A stretch of DNA of 64,000 nucleotides from the NCBI GenBank assembly GCA_963169045.1, contig CAUJDF010000056.1, positions 1 to 64,000 of the forward strand. The letters are read 5' to 3'. Numbering within the stretch: the stretch's first letter is position 1; each line of letters starts with the position of its first letter. The position numbers and the translations under genes are program-made. Source of the DNA: Myxococcota bacterium (GTDB lineage: Bacteria; Myxococcota_A; Bradymonadia; UBA7976; UBA1532). Below are positions 59,419 through 64,000 of the stretch, piece after piece. The notes under the pieces were generated by a model. The model had not been told where the DNA came from. It made no database searches and was given only the letters and a program-made list of their open reading frames with translations.

Positions 59419-59449
59419 CGGGGTGGGCGCCGGGCGCGATCCTGCCGCC

Positions 59450-60232
59450 ATGAACCCCACGCACGACCCCGGACGACACGAGCCGACGCGGGCGCCCACG
59501 CAGGCGGAGTGGGACGCGCTGTCGCCGGATGCGCGGCGCCGGGTCGTCGACGCGCTCTCGCCGAGCCTCGGCGAGCACGAGGCGGCCCCACCCGAAGGCG
59601 ATCTGCACTTCGCCGCCAAGGTCGCCGCGCTCGACGCGCTCCGCGGCTTCTTCGGACGCGAGGGTCGCGGCGTCTACATCGCCTCCGAGCTCGCGGTGTA
59701 CTACCCCGGCGCGCGGCGCTTCGCGCCCGACCTGCTCGTCGTCTTCGACGTCGATCCGCACCCGCGGACGAAGTGGGTCGTCAGCGCCGAGGGCAAGGGC
59801 CTCGACTTCGTCCTCGAGGTCCACTTCGGCGGCGACCGGCGCAAAGACGCCGAGGAGAACGTCCGCTTCTACGCGGAGCTCGGCATCCCCGAGTACTTCG
59901 TGTTCGACCGCGCCCGCGGCCGGCTGCGCGGCTACGTGTTGCCGGCGGCCGGCGGCGCCTACGTCCCGATCTTGCCCCAGGCGGGACGCTACCCCTCGGC
60001 GATCCTCGGCCTCGACCTCGGTCTGGAGGGCGACCGACTGCGCTTCTTCAAGGCGAACGCCCCCATCCTCGAGTCGACGGAGTGGGTCGAGCGCATGGGC
60101 GCCATGCTGGAGGCGACGCAGCGCCGCGCCGAGGACGAAGCCCGCCGCGCCGAGGACGAGGCCCGCCGCGTCGCCGAGCTCGAAGCGCGTCTCGCGGAGG
60201 CCCTCGCCGAGATCGAGCGCCTCAAGCGTTGA
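59450..60232 (+). CDS. Uma2-family putative nuclease
   Basis: 260 residues from the ATG at 59450. It shows the Uma2/DUF820 core, a PD-(D/E)xK-like fold: RRFAPDLLVVFDV, LDFVLEVHFGGDRRKDAEENVRFYAELGIPEYFVFD. The C-terminus adds a coiled-coil tail (about 210-260) with repeated AEDEARR. The family is widespread in bacteria with many copies per genome; its substrate is not known. It follows the TrmA-like gene by 31 bp. A GTG at 59423 is an alternative start. Confidence 0.9.
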   Translation: MNPTHDPGRHEPTRAPTQAEWDALSPDARRRVVDALSPSLGEHEAAPPEGDLHFAAKVAALDALRGFFGREGRGVYIASELAVYYPGARRFAPDLLVVFDVDPHPRTKWVVSAEGKGLDFVLEVHFGGDRRKDAEENVRFYAELGIPEYFVFDRARGRLRGYVLPAAGGAYVPILPQAGRYPSAILGLDLGLEGDRLRFFKANAPILESTEWVERMGAMLEATQRRAEDEARRAEDEARRVAELEARLAEALAEIERLKR

Positions 60233-60246
60233 GTCGCCGCGCGCCG

Positions 60247-61482
60247 TCAGCGCTCGGCGGCCCAGGGCAACATGCGGCGCACGAGGTCGTCGAACGCCGC
60301 GACGCCGAGCTCGAGGTCGGCCTCGGCGGTGTCTTCGATGTGCGTGTGCGACAGGCCGCGGATCGACGGCACGAACATCATCACGGTGGGCACGCCAGCG
60401 CGCGCCATCTCCGCCGAGTCGTGCATCGGCCCCGAGGGCATGATCTGCCGCACGCCGCTGCGCGCCTCGACGGCGTCGGCGGCGAAGCGCACGAGGTCGG
60501 GATCGAACGCGATGGGCGCGATCGACCAGAGCGTCTCGAGCTCGGCCTCGCAGCGCTCCTCGGCGGCGACGCGCGCCACGATTTCGCGCAGGCCGGCCAC
60601 CATGGACTCGAGGACGCCGCGGTCGAGGTGGCGCATGTCGACGCTGAACTCGGTGCGCCCGTTGACGGCGGTGGGCACGGCGGGGTGGACGCGCCACACG
60701 CCGATGGTCGAGAACGCGTCGTGCTTCAGGCCGAGGTCGCGGATCTCGACGGCCATGCGCGCGGCGGCCAGCGTCGTGTCGCGGCGCATCGGGATGGGCG
60801 TCGCACCGGCGTGGGCCGCCTGACCGCGCAACTTCACCATGGAGCGCTCGACGCCGAGGATGCCGTGCAGCGCGGCGAGCCGCAGCCCCGCCGCCTCGAG
60901 CACCGGCCCCTGCTCGATGTGCAGCTCGGCCGAGGCCTTGATGCTCGGCAGGATGCGGCCGGCCTCGAGGATGGTCTCGAGGTGGACGCCGTGCGCCCGG
61001 ACCGCCTCCTCGAGCGTCACGCCGTTCCGGTCGCGGAAGCCGCGGATCTGGTCGACCTCGAGCGTGCCGCTCACCGCGCCGCTGCCGAAGAGCGAGCGGC
61101 CGAAGCGCGCGCCCTCTTCGTCGGCCCAGTCGACGACGCTGACGCTCACCGGCAGGTCGACGCCGTCGCGGTGCAGCGCGCGCAGCACCTCGGCGCCGGC
61201 GATCACGCCGAGCGCGCCGTCGAGCCAGCCGCCGTTCGGCACCGAGTCGAGGTGGCTGCCGAGCACGACGCGGTCCGTCGAGCGGCCGGGCAGCGTCACC
61301 CACAGGTTGCCGGCGGGATCGGTCTCGATCTCGACCGGGACCCCCTCGAACGTGGTCTTGAACCACTCGCGGGCCTCGACCCACTTGGGCGTCCAGGCGA
61401 GGCGCTGGCTGCCCTCGGCGGTGGCGGTGAGCTCGCGCAGCTTCTTCAGGTCGGCGACGACGCGCTGGGGACTTGCAGGCAT
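60247..61482 (-). CDS. M20 hydantoinase/carbamoylase-type amidohydrolase
   Basis: 411 residues. SHLDSVPNGGWLDGALG holds metal ligands His77 and Asp88, WADEEGARF the Glu pair at 122-123, HIEQGPVLE the next His, and GLSHTHIEDT the final His. These define the M20 hydantoinase/carbamoylase subfamily (N-carbamoyl-L-amino acid hydrolase, allantoate amidohydrolase or ureidoglycolate-type). I cannot pick a substrate with certainty; no hydantoinase, allantoinase or ureidoglycolate genes are near. It is convergent with the Uma2 gene (14 bp) and diverges from the RtcR-like gene with 63 bp between them. Confidence 0.92.
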   Translation of the reverse strand: MPASPQRVVADLKKLRELTATAEGSQRLAWTPKWVEAREWFKTTFEGVPVEIETDPAGNLWVTLPGRSTDRVVLGSHLDSVPNGGWLDGALGVIAGAEVLRALHRDGVDLPVSVSVVDWADEEGARFGRSLFGSGAVSGTLEVDQIRGFRDRNGVTLEEAVRAHGVHLETILEAGRILPSIKASAELHIEQGPVLEAAGLRLAALHGILGVERSMVKLRGQAAHAGATPIPMRRDTTLAAARMAVEIRDLGLKHDAFSTIGVWRVHPAVPTAVNGRTEFSVDMRHLDRGVLESMVAGLREIVARVAAEERCEAELETLWSIAPIAFDPDLVRFAADAVEARSGVRQIMPSGPMHDSAEMARAGVPTVMMFVPSIRGLSHTHIEDTAEADLELGVAAFDDLVRRMLPWAAER

Positions 61483-61545
61483 TGGGCGAGCCTAACCCGG
61501 GCGCGCCGGCGCGACAATCCAGCGCGTCCGGGCTACGCTCGCGCC

Positions 61546-62910
61546 ATGTCCTCGACTCGGCCCGTCACCCTCGTCGCCCCCGTCGACCTCGAGCAGGACG
61601 CCTGCGCCCCGCAGGAGCGCTCGACGAAGTGGCGCCCGACGGCGGCGCTCGTCGAGCACTTCCGGCCGGCGCGCGTCGACCTGCTGTATCCGCCCGGGGC
61701 GCACGCGCTCGCCGCGCAGGTGGCCGAGGACGTGCGCGCGCTGGTGCCCGCGGCGCTCATCACGCTCGACGCGCTCCCCCCGGAAGAGGCGGACTTCGCG
61801 ACCACCATCGCGGCCTTCGGCCGGTGGGCGGCCCGGCGCGGGTACGACGCCGAGGCGGAGGACGTCCTCGTCAACGGCGAGCCCCTCTCCGACGCCCAGC
61901 GGCTTTGCCTCTTCTTCCTCATCGAGTCGGGGGAGCTGCCGGGCCGGCTCGTCGCCGCGCCGCGGCCGGAGACCGGCGAGCCCGCCCAGATCATCGACCT
62001 GCGCGCCCGCCTCCGCGCGCTCGGGGAGACCCACCCGCGCGTCGACACGCCGGCGAGGGAGGACGAGCACGTCGCCCTGGACGAGGCCGCACCCGAGCTC
62101 GACATCCCCGTCTACAACGTCGACTTCGCCCTGCTCCTGGACAGGATCGAGAGTGTGGCGACCCGCTGCCGCACGCCGATCCTCCTCGTCGGACCCGACG
62201 GTACCGGCAAGGTCGCGCTCGCGCGGCGCGTCTACGCGGCGAAGAAGGCCTGCGGGCTCGTGACCGGCGCGTTCGTGGAGTTCGACTGCTCGACGTGGTT
62301 CGACGACGAGGTGATCGGCGAGCTGTTCGGGCAGGTGCCGGGCGATCCCGGGGCCGAAGACCGCTGCGTCCTGCGCCAGGCCGAGGGCGGTGTGCTCTGC
62401 CTGCGCGAGGTCGGCGCGCTGCCGCGGGACGCGCAAGCCATCTTGCAGGCCGTGATCGAGCGGGGCGTCGTGCCCCGGCTCTTCGCCGACGGCGGGATGG
62501 CGTGCGACGTCCAGCTCGTCTGCTGCAACCGCGAGGACCCGAGGGACGCGGTCGAGGCGGGCACGCTCCGCGAGTCGCTGCTGGCGTGCATCGACCGGTG
62601 GTGGTTCCACGTGCCGGCGTTGAAGGACCGGCCCGAGGACATCGCCGCGAACATCGACTACGAGCTCGCGCGAAACGAGCGGGCGCTCGGCGTCCCGCTG
62701 ACGTTCGTCCCCGCCGCGCGCGCGCGCTACCTCGAGTTCGCCCTCGAGGCGCCCTGGCCGGGCAACTTCTACGAGCTCGAGGGCAGCATCGAGCGCATGG
62801 CGGTGCACTCGCGCGACGGCCTCCTCACGGAGCGCGTGGTCGACGAAGAGATCGCGGAGCTCCTGTCGCGATGGGTGGGCCGGGTGCCGGTGAACGCGCC
62901 GTGGGGGTAG
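61546..62910 (+). CDS. Degenerate RtcR-like AAA protein
   Basis: 454 residues. It follows RtcR, the sigma54 activator of RNA repair genes, from end to end. The N-terminal domain (about 1-155, CARF-like in RtcR) contains ERSTKWRPTAALVEHFRPARVDLLY and AQIIDLRARL, and the AAA domain starts near 195. Key sites are changed: the CARF signature HITTGTH region reads LVNGEPLSDAQ (108-118), Walker A is GPDGTGKV (Val for Ser/Thr), Walker B is GGVLCLREVGAL (Arg for Asp) and the GAFTGA loop is missing (QVPGDPGAEDR). It stops after the AAA lid with no helix-turn-helix. No rtcA/rtcB genes lie near. It cannot be a normal activator and is perhaps a sensor or decoy. Confidence 0.85.
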   Translation: MSSTRPVTLVAPVDLEQDACAPQERSTKWRPTAALVEHFRPARVDLLYPPGAHALAAQVAEDVRALVPAALITLDALPPEEADFATTIAAFGRWAARRGYDAEAEDVLVNGEPLSDAQRLCLFFLIESGELPGRLVAAPRPETGEPAQIIDLRARLRALGETHPRVDTPAREDEHVALDEAAPELDIPVYNVDFALLLDRIESVATRCRTPILLVGPDGTGKVALARRVYAAKKACGLVTGAFVEFDCSTWFDDEVIGELFGQVPGDPGAEDRCVLRQAEGGVLCLREVGALPRDAQAILQAVIERGVVPRLFADGGMACDVQLVCCNREDPRDAVEAGTLRESLLACIDRWWFHVPALKDRPEDIAANIDYELARNERALGVPLTFVPAARARYLEFALEAPWPGNFYELEGSIERMAVHSRDGLLTERVVDEEIAELLSRWVGRVPVNAPWG

Positions 62911-62938
62911 TCGCCCGGCGGGCGTCCGGGTGGAGCGT

Positions 62939-63694
62939 TCAGGTGGGCGAGACTGGCGCGGGCGCCGCCGGCGCAGCAGCCGCGGGCGCCGCGGACGCCG
63001 TCGCCCCGGCGGCGCGGCGGCGGCGCGACGGGCGGAGCGCGTCGAAGTAGCCGAGCACCTGCGCCTCGAGGTTCGCCGGCACCGTCGGGTCCTCCTTGAG
63101 CTCGAGGCGCACGGCGGCGCGGATGCGGGCAACGAGCGCGGTCGCGTCGCGCACGATGGCCGGCAGCGTGCGCCGCTGCGCGTCGGCCGGGGCGCTCCGC
63201 GCGCTGCTGAGGCGACCGAGCGCCTCGCCGCGCTCGATCCAGAGATGAACGAGTGCCGCGAGCGAACGCTCGCCGGGCGCCGCGGGGAAGAGCTCGAGCG
63301 CCGCCTGCAGGCGCGGGCGCTGGCTGCGCGCGAGAAGCGCGTCGGCGGCGCGCTCGTCCGGCGAACGCCGCGCCGACGTGCGCTCGGCGAGCAGCGTGTC
63401 GTGCAGGGCCGTCGCCGCCGCGCGCTTCGCCGCCGGGTACAGCGGGTTGCGCTTCGCGGCGAGCAGCGTGTGGTTCAGCGACGTGGTGACCTCCACGTGC
63501 TGCTCGAACGCTTCGCTCAGATCGCCGCCGGTCACCTCCGCCTCGCGGCCGAGCACGGCGTCGATCTCCGCCGAGAGCCGGCGAACCGCGGCCTCGTCGC
63601 GCCCCCCGGTGGGCAGCCGGTGCAGATGGAGCAGGCGGTTCTCGATCAGGTCTCCGAACGCGAGACGGTACTGCGGGGCCTTCAACGTGGACAT
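62939..63694 (-). CDS. Hypothetical helical protein with Ala/Pro tail
   Basis: 251 residues from the ATG at 63694 with a Shine-Dalgarno (GAGAGGAGAG). It is predicted to be mostly helical (FGDLIENRLLHLHRLPTGGRDEAAVRRL, LPAIVRDATALVARIRAAVRLEL), with a basic patch RPSRRRRAA followed by an Ala/Pro-rich tail. No family, membrane helix or signal peptide is seen. It is convergent with the RtcR-like gene (28 bp). The basic, low-complexity end could bind nucleic acid but that is a guess. Confidence 0.7.
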   Translation of the reverse strand: MSTLKAPQYRLAFGDLIENRLLHLHRLPTGGRDEAAVRRLSAEIDAVLGREAEVTGGDLSEAFEQHVEVTTSLNHTLLAAKRNPLYPAAKRAAATALHDTLLAERTSARRSPDERAADALLARSQRPRLQAALELFPAAPGERSLAALVHLWIERGEALGRLSSARSAPADAQRRTLPAIVRDATALVARIRAAVRLELKEDPTVPANLEAQVLGYFDALRPSRRRRAAGATASAAPAAAAPAAPAPVSPT

Positions 63695-63863
63695 CGGCTC
63701 TCTCCTCTCTGGTGTTTCGCCGTCGTCGGCGTGGCGAGGCCCCGGTCCCTAGATCGTGGCGGTTGACAGCAGCGCCCCGTCCGTTCGTGGGTCTCGCAGG
63801 GTCCGACCCTCGATCGCCTCCGCCCCGGCCCCCTGGCGCGTCTCGGTGCGACGGAGTATTGGG

Positions 63864-64000
63864 ATGGCCATGCTCAGGATCACGGCGCTCTTGGGGGTCG
63901 TCGCGCTCTGCGGGTGCGACGTCGAGGAGGTGGTGATGAAATCGGCGCAGGCGGCCGAGGTGGCCGACGAGGCGGACGCGGGTCGCGGCCTCGTCTTCGA
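63864..64000 (+). CDS. Lipoprotein, cut by the window end
   Basis: The ATG at 63864 follows GGAG at 8 bases and starts MAMLRITALLGVVALCGCDV, a signal with a lipobox ending CGC. The frame stays open to the end of the window (45 codons), continuing with an acidic Ala-rich stretch. Nothing about the function can be said. The 169 bp between it and the hypothetical gene upstream must hold both start regions. Confidence 0.6.
   Translation, partial: MAMLRITALLGVVALCGCDVEEVVMKSAQAAEVADEADAGRGLVF

Follow-up and report, generated by a model that had tools for sequence, protein, structure and literature searches.

The question raised by this locus is what a relative of RtcR can still do after the parts that make RtcR a transcriptional activator have been replaced or deleted, and whether its gene is decaying or kept. 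RtcR, the CARF-AAA+-HTH activator of rtcBA, is expected to form a dimer kept in check by the CARF domain, the part that binds tRNA halves with a cyclic-phosphate end (PMC7790460, available portion). The gene between positions 61546 and 62910 on the forward strand of the window (the whole 64,000-nucleotide stretch of DNA analysed) comprises 454 codons, with the frame open throughout and 0 internal stops. A preliminary description had presented the 454-aa product, which has CARF and AAA+ domains without an HTH, as an RtcR-like protein that lost every catalytic and DNA-binding feature; its interpretation was partly supported by the present analysis, which agreed with it on a protein derived from RtcR that has ceased to be an activator. 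Each of the three roles that it proposed, a sensor, a dominant-negative partner of a true RtcR, or an RNA-damage-linked adaptor, may still apply.

The assignment to RtcR was confirmed by profile searches. The top family was NCBIfam NF038308 (E 5.7e-82 at 276 bits, with residues 13-444 aligned to positions 10-444 of a 530-position model), although the equivalog cut-off of 650 bits was not reached; the runner-up model scored 99 bits. Pfam detected RtcR (PF06956, E 8.5e-14, residues 21-152), which marks the N-terminal domain as CARF-type, as well as Sigma54_activat (E 1.2e-19) and AAA_lid_14, and PADLOC also called RtcR (E 6.3e-87). In sequence and fold searches of the PDB, the AAA+ part matched the sigma-54 activators PspF, FlrC, NtrX, and NtrC1, and the fold search returned sigma-54 activators only, among the matches listed (best 50). 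An AlphaFold2 model computed from the protein aligned with 37 RtcRs, an alignment that helps drive model confidence, had a mean pLDDT of 87.3 and a pTM of 0.59, with low confidence in the linker (residues 160-185) and the tail (residues 447-454). It contained the CARF-type domain (residues 7-158; 61564-62019, forward strand), delimited by the Pfam match and the predicted secondary structure, and the AAA+ domain of sigma-54 activator type (residues 186-446; 62101-62883, forward strand), delimited by Pfam, the model, and the PDB and fold searches. The fold is kept in the predicted model, and both domains align with RtcR over their whole length, as far as the start of the HTH.

Conservation was determined in an alignment of 104 rows (the window protein, 5 other rows from its own genome, 8 family loci, 10 class or phylum loci, and 80 loci from genome contigs). 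Columns with at least 97% identity in 99 background RtcR sequences were taken as conserved, giving 134 columns, 112 of them alignable in the window protein. The window protein kept 61 of these 112 sites and had changed 51. The other copies of the same genome, on contigs C101, C4, and C79, retained 111, 116, and 131 of 134, respectively. In the leave-one-out analysis of the background (n=99), the median retention was 100% and the lowest 87% (125/143, L123), so that comparable degradation was found in 0/99. Since 51 of 112 otherwise conserved positions had changed, chance is not an issue for these losses.

The functional sites were named after the available portion of a review on bacterial enhancer-binding proteins (bEBPs; PMC7175178) and general background on these proteins, independently of any residue-by-residue alignment with PspF. 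All coordinates given here are on the forward strand and were read from the alignment. The CARF motif, HITTGTHVAQ in the other proteins, was replaced at residues 109-119 (61870-61902), with loss of T113, G114, and H116. Walker A (GPDGTGKV, 62191-62214) kept Lys222 and carried Val223 at the position that is Ser in 95 and Thr in 8 of the 103 other rows. The switch Asn was replaced by Asp at position 247, and the L1 loop (62329-62364) had no GAFTGA owing to a three-residue deletion and replacement. In Walker B (62404-62409), the Asp present in 102/102 aligned rows (1 gap) was Arg287, and Glu288 was kept. At the sensor I position, which is Thr in 101 of the other rows and Ser in 1 (1 gap), the protein had N328. 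The first arginine finger, Arg342, was retained, whereas the second had become Cys348 (62587-62589; Arg in 102/102 aligned rows, 1 gap), and the sensor II Arg was Tyr409 (62770-62772; likewise 102/102, 1 gap). A C-terminal HTH was absent, and a six-frame search of 60001-64000 showed no remnant of one. Accordingly, the changed CARF motif, the Walker A and Walker B substitutions, the missing GAFTGA, and the absent HTH of the preliminary description were all confirmed. Many bEBPs lack Ser or Thr after the Walker A Lys. Because of this, and because Lys222, Glu288, and Arg342 are kept, "every catalytic feature" overstates the case.

Errors of sequencing or assembly might in principle make an ordinary rtcR look like this, and there is no close homologue against which single bases could be checked. 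However, the differences extend to 51 of 112 conserved sites in a gene whose frame and codon bias are normal, and a local error was supported by no relative. Judged from the coding sequence, the error reading is refuted for the gene overall and keeps next to no probability.

Since GAFTGA, parts required for ATP hydrolysis, and the HTH are missing, remodelling of sigma-54 polymerase at a promoter by the bEBP mechanism is not expected of the protein (PMC7175178, available portion). It might instead regulate sigma-70 promoters, like Caulobacter NtrC or a Vibrio regulator, and bEBPs that have lost the sigma-54 loop, as the window protein has, are documented at such promoters (Caulobacter and Rhodobacter NtrC; PMC10274813, available portion). 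Those documented cases keep DNA binding, whereas the window protein has neither an HTH nor a remnant of it and has also lost nucleotide-site residues, which makes this explanation very improbable.

The genome (9.0 Mb, 109 contigs) contained RtcR-domain matches at five loci, namely the window, C101, C4, C79, and C48. A genome-wide look for a second, intact rtcR and rtcBA, as advised in the preliminary description, was successful at C79, where a Ro60-vWA gene, rtcB, and rtcA are oriented divergently to a canonical rtcR. The window gene, unlike rtcR, is not linked to rtcB or rtcA; its neighbours are a Uma2-type putative endonuclease gene (59423-60232), an M20 peptidase gene (60247-61482; both by Pfam), and a convergent partner gene. 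The M20 peptidase gene is divergent from the RtcR-like gene, with its start 63 bases away. The RtcR-family gene of C48 is cut by the end of its contig, and an identical overlap makes it evident that the rest is on C92; its RtcR domain lies in two frames (L023 end), and the toxin-antitoxin genes mqsR and mqsA follow it (L022:3723-4522, L022:4581-5615, C92 end). MqsR is an RNase, and an RNA-damage sensor beside mqsR is therefore suggestive. No sigma-54 site above shuffles was found for this regulator or for mqsR, nor for drmA of DISARM at C4.

The window, C101, and C4 proteins appear to be related more closely to one another. A two-residue deletion in the CARF domain was common to the three and occurred in 0/99 others, and all three had lost W26 (96% in the background) as well as T113, H116, Q137, and P140 (99-100%). 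The window protein shared 14 rare states with the C101 protein (next best 8, median 1). In a tree of 37 of the 104 rows, C101 grouped with C4 (support 99/97); the window protein had a branch of 7.6 changes per site, and a group of all three was neither supported nor rejected (p-AU 0.488). Because this long branch defeated tree placement, the rare shared states and the indel were used for kinship. The closest relative was the C101 protein of the same genome (42%); a protein from the phylum genome G143 also reached 42% by the same count, with fewer bits, and is intact. No closer relative than C101 was found in 13 family, 16 order, 57 class, and 377 phylum genomes (own genome in each set), a single-protein scan of genome contigs gave no close relative, and no orthologue emerged from any of these searches. 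The phylum set was sampled from a larger group and the top candidates per genome were scored, so that a diverged orthologue could escape.

The partner gene (62939-63694, reverse strand) encodes a helical protein of 251 aa and is convergent with the RtcR-like gene across a gap of 28 bases. Convergent pairs were also present at C101 and C4, with partners of 287 and 288 aa, respectively. After masking of low complexity, the C101 and C4 partners matched at 49.3 bits and the window and C4 partners at 35.4 bits (shuffle maxima 19.2 and 20.4, n=100), whereas the direct window-C101 comparison was not significant (15.0 bits). A profile from the C4, C101, C70, and C11 partners, with the window copy left out, found the window partner genome-wide at E 6.7e-19, which makes it a homologue of the other two. 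Its divergence exceeds that of its sisters (71.6 bits vs 144-214, from a profile of four vs profiles of three). A Pfam search gave nothing significant for the partner, and its single-sequence model had a pLDDT of 52.5. A HEPN-type RNase identity was considered and dropped, as the R-X6-H string of the window partner was, by eye, absent from the partners at C101 and C4.

The partner family occupied 12 loci in the genome (E < 1e-5; the two C74 rows were taken as a single locus), 3 of which adjoin an RtcR-like gene. It was present in 18 of the 377 genomes of the phylum sample; 0 of the 17 partner loci fetched from other genomes had an RtcR nearby, and conversely the partner gene was seen at 0 of 80 named RtcR loci and 0 of 10 RtcR loci from the class and phylum searches. 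Within the loci covered, the pairing was therefore confined to this genome. Here, the partner stands beside all three RtcR-like genes without a link to rtc or mqs genes, an arrangement that we consider very unlikely to have arisen by chance. No common theme was found among the neighbours of the other partner copies. Near the C101 module lies a gene for a 383-aa protein (L019:13913-15064) with a signal-peptide-like start and four matches to the ribosomal L7/L12 C-terminal domain.

The regions upstream of the partner genes were scored for sigma-54 promoters, with weights that are our own approximation to the consensus (maximum 18.5). The sequence TGGCACG-N5-TGCT was located at positions -72 (C101), -74 (C4), and -76 (C70) before the respective partner genes, scoring 17.5/18.5 in each case, a value reached by 0/200 shuffles. 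The control site 59 bases before ro60 in the ro60-rtcBA locus of C79 had the same score. At the window partner, unlike at C101, C4, and C70, the upstream region (63695-63994, reverse strand) contained neither a sigma-54 -24/-12 site nor a shared element, and its best score of 13.0 was matched by 164/200 shuffles; a sigma-54 promoter was also looked for before the window regulator and not found. The exact sequence occurred at 35 sites in the 9 Mb genome against 25 for the reversed-pattern control, and most of the 35 are therefore probably due to chance; yet three are equally placed before members of one family. Promoters were tested at 10 of the 12 partner loci of the genome, with starts partly estimated, and 3 were positive; the C11 copy had a related promoter sequence without the GG. 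Among the 17 partner copies of other genomes, none was at sigma-54 promoter level (best 15.5). A fragmentary partner copy on C74 (L181:3191-3485) was preceded by a palindromic sigma-54-like site (16.0/18.5, 4/200 shuffles).

Upstream of the promoter, a 15-mer was common to C101 and C70 and a 16-mer to C4 and C11 (shuffle maximum 11), and neither had further exact copies in the genome. In the window, the 16-mer had no match at 3 mismatches and the 15-mer chance-level matches only. The C70 and C11 copies (L073:5895-6704 and L074:5887-6732) are partner-family genes away from any RtcR, with upstream elements as at C101 and C4, respectively; C70 also has a sigma-54 promoter and C11 a damaged one. 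This pairing suggests a separate putative binding element for each live regulator.

In summary, we regard the locus, with a probability of about 60%, as the third copy of an RtcR-like sigma-54 switch, one that has been decommissioned, while the other two copies look live. The sequence itself shows the two-gene module, what regulator and partner have each lost, and the intact coding structure; the regulation in the live copies is our inference. There, a CARF-AAA+-HTH activator would bind the upstream element and, through sigma-54, switch on the convergent gene for the helical partner and, in the case of C101, one further paralogue of that gene. At the window locus, the activator has lost its sigma-54 contact, parts required for ATP hydrolysis, DNA binding, and the motif of the CARF pocket, and the partner its sigma-54 promoter and upstream element. 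These losses rule out the window protein as a sigma-54 activator and the partner as its sigma-54 target. The output of the regulator and the promoter of its target were thus lost together, while both genes are still intact coding sequences. The presence of the two-gene module in three copies, the two live-looking sigma-54 circuits, and the loss of the target promoter in the window go beyond the preliminary description.

The coincidence of the regulator and promoter losses would also be expected of a relic, in which the promoter of the partner was lost first and the regulator, no longer under selection, is decaying, its frame open through GC-richness and the recency of the decay. Neutral simulations (300 runs per gene for three starting genes, equilibrium GC of 0.70 assumed, substitutions only and no indels) required about 390-400 changes for the observed loss of conserved sites, which would leave about 4 stops; 0.7-2.3% of the runs had zero stops, and the absence of stops by itself would be modestly unlikely under neutrality. 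Furthermore, 393 neutral changes in the C79 gene at intergenic GC (0.726) gave a GC2 of 0.567 +/- 0.019 and a GC3 of 0.874 +/- 0.014, far off the 0.482 and 0.967 observed in the window gene. The frame open across 454 codons and these values suggest that most of the divergence arose in a translated, selected frame, and the codon structure argues against long neutral decay. The confident folded model would point the same way, though the alignment partly drives it. On the other hand, the replacements at lost conserved sites were no milder than neutral ones (BLOSUM62 -0.90 vs about -1.01 +/- 0.21) and thus look unconstrained, and the branch is very long, so that constraint on the protein is weak; no orthologue was found. 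A relic is the main rival of a retained role for a dead subunit, and we regard it as possible, with well under an even chance.

If the decommissioned copy is kept, the simplest retained role would be that of an ATPase-dead, DNA-blind folded protein that binds its sister RtcR-like proteins, the closest being that of C101, and damps them; we propose this persistence tentatively. Alternatively, it might act as a sensor or adaptor at the protein level, touching the partner protein (62939-63694) directly so that a complex stands in place of transcriptional control. The pair is still adjacent with both frames open, and the helical PspA binds and inhibits the PspF AAA+ ring in trans, so that contacts between helical proteins and bEBPs exist (PMC3791423, available portion). 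Nevertheless, the CARF pocket motif is replaced, the partner is poorly modelled, and an RtcR is missing beside most homologues of the partner, and we consider direct contact of this kind unlikely.

RtcR-like CARF-AAA-HTH proteins without a link to rtc have been described in the vicinity of defence genes of the R-M or CoCoNuT type (PMC4012209, PMC11090510, available portions). These proteins (PADLOC RtcR_PspF1/2) likewise serve other genes, and the C4 module adjoins drmA, drmB, and drmC of DISARM together with a HEC-01A-like ATPase gene (L020:3-7862). They keep CARF-AAA-HTH in the accessible descriptions, whereas a degenerate regulator is found here with a convergent helical gene of unassigned function. 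PcdA of Staphylococcus aureus is an AAA+ protein with a degenerate Walker B that was recruited from a defence-type family (a phage restriction system), but it belongs to a different AAA+ family and its role is in cell division, according to the part of the source available. In the accessible, mostly open-access literature, no RtcR pseudo-activator and no module of RtcR with a helical partner was found.

The three loci offer a natural matched comparison, the same two-gene switch being present twice with a sigma-54 promoter and once with output and promoter lost. They name testable targets of RtcR-like activators beyond RNA repair, among them a protein family that has not been studied, and with the window protein one can ask what a CARF-AAA+ protein is able to do without ATPase activity or DNA binding. 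It may be, although we offer this as speculation, that RtcR-type sensors split off private sigma-54 circuits driving a helical protein family and that one sensor then left transcription, persisting as an ATPase-dead, DNA-blind tuner of its live sisters or of its partner by direct contact.
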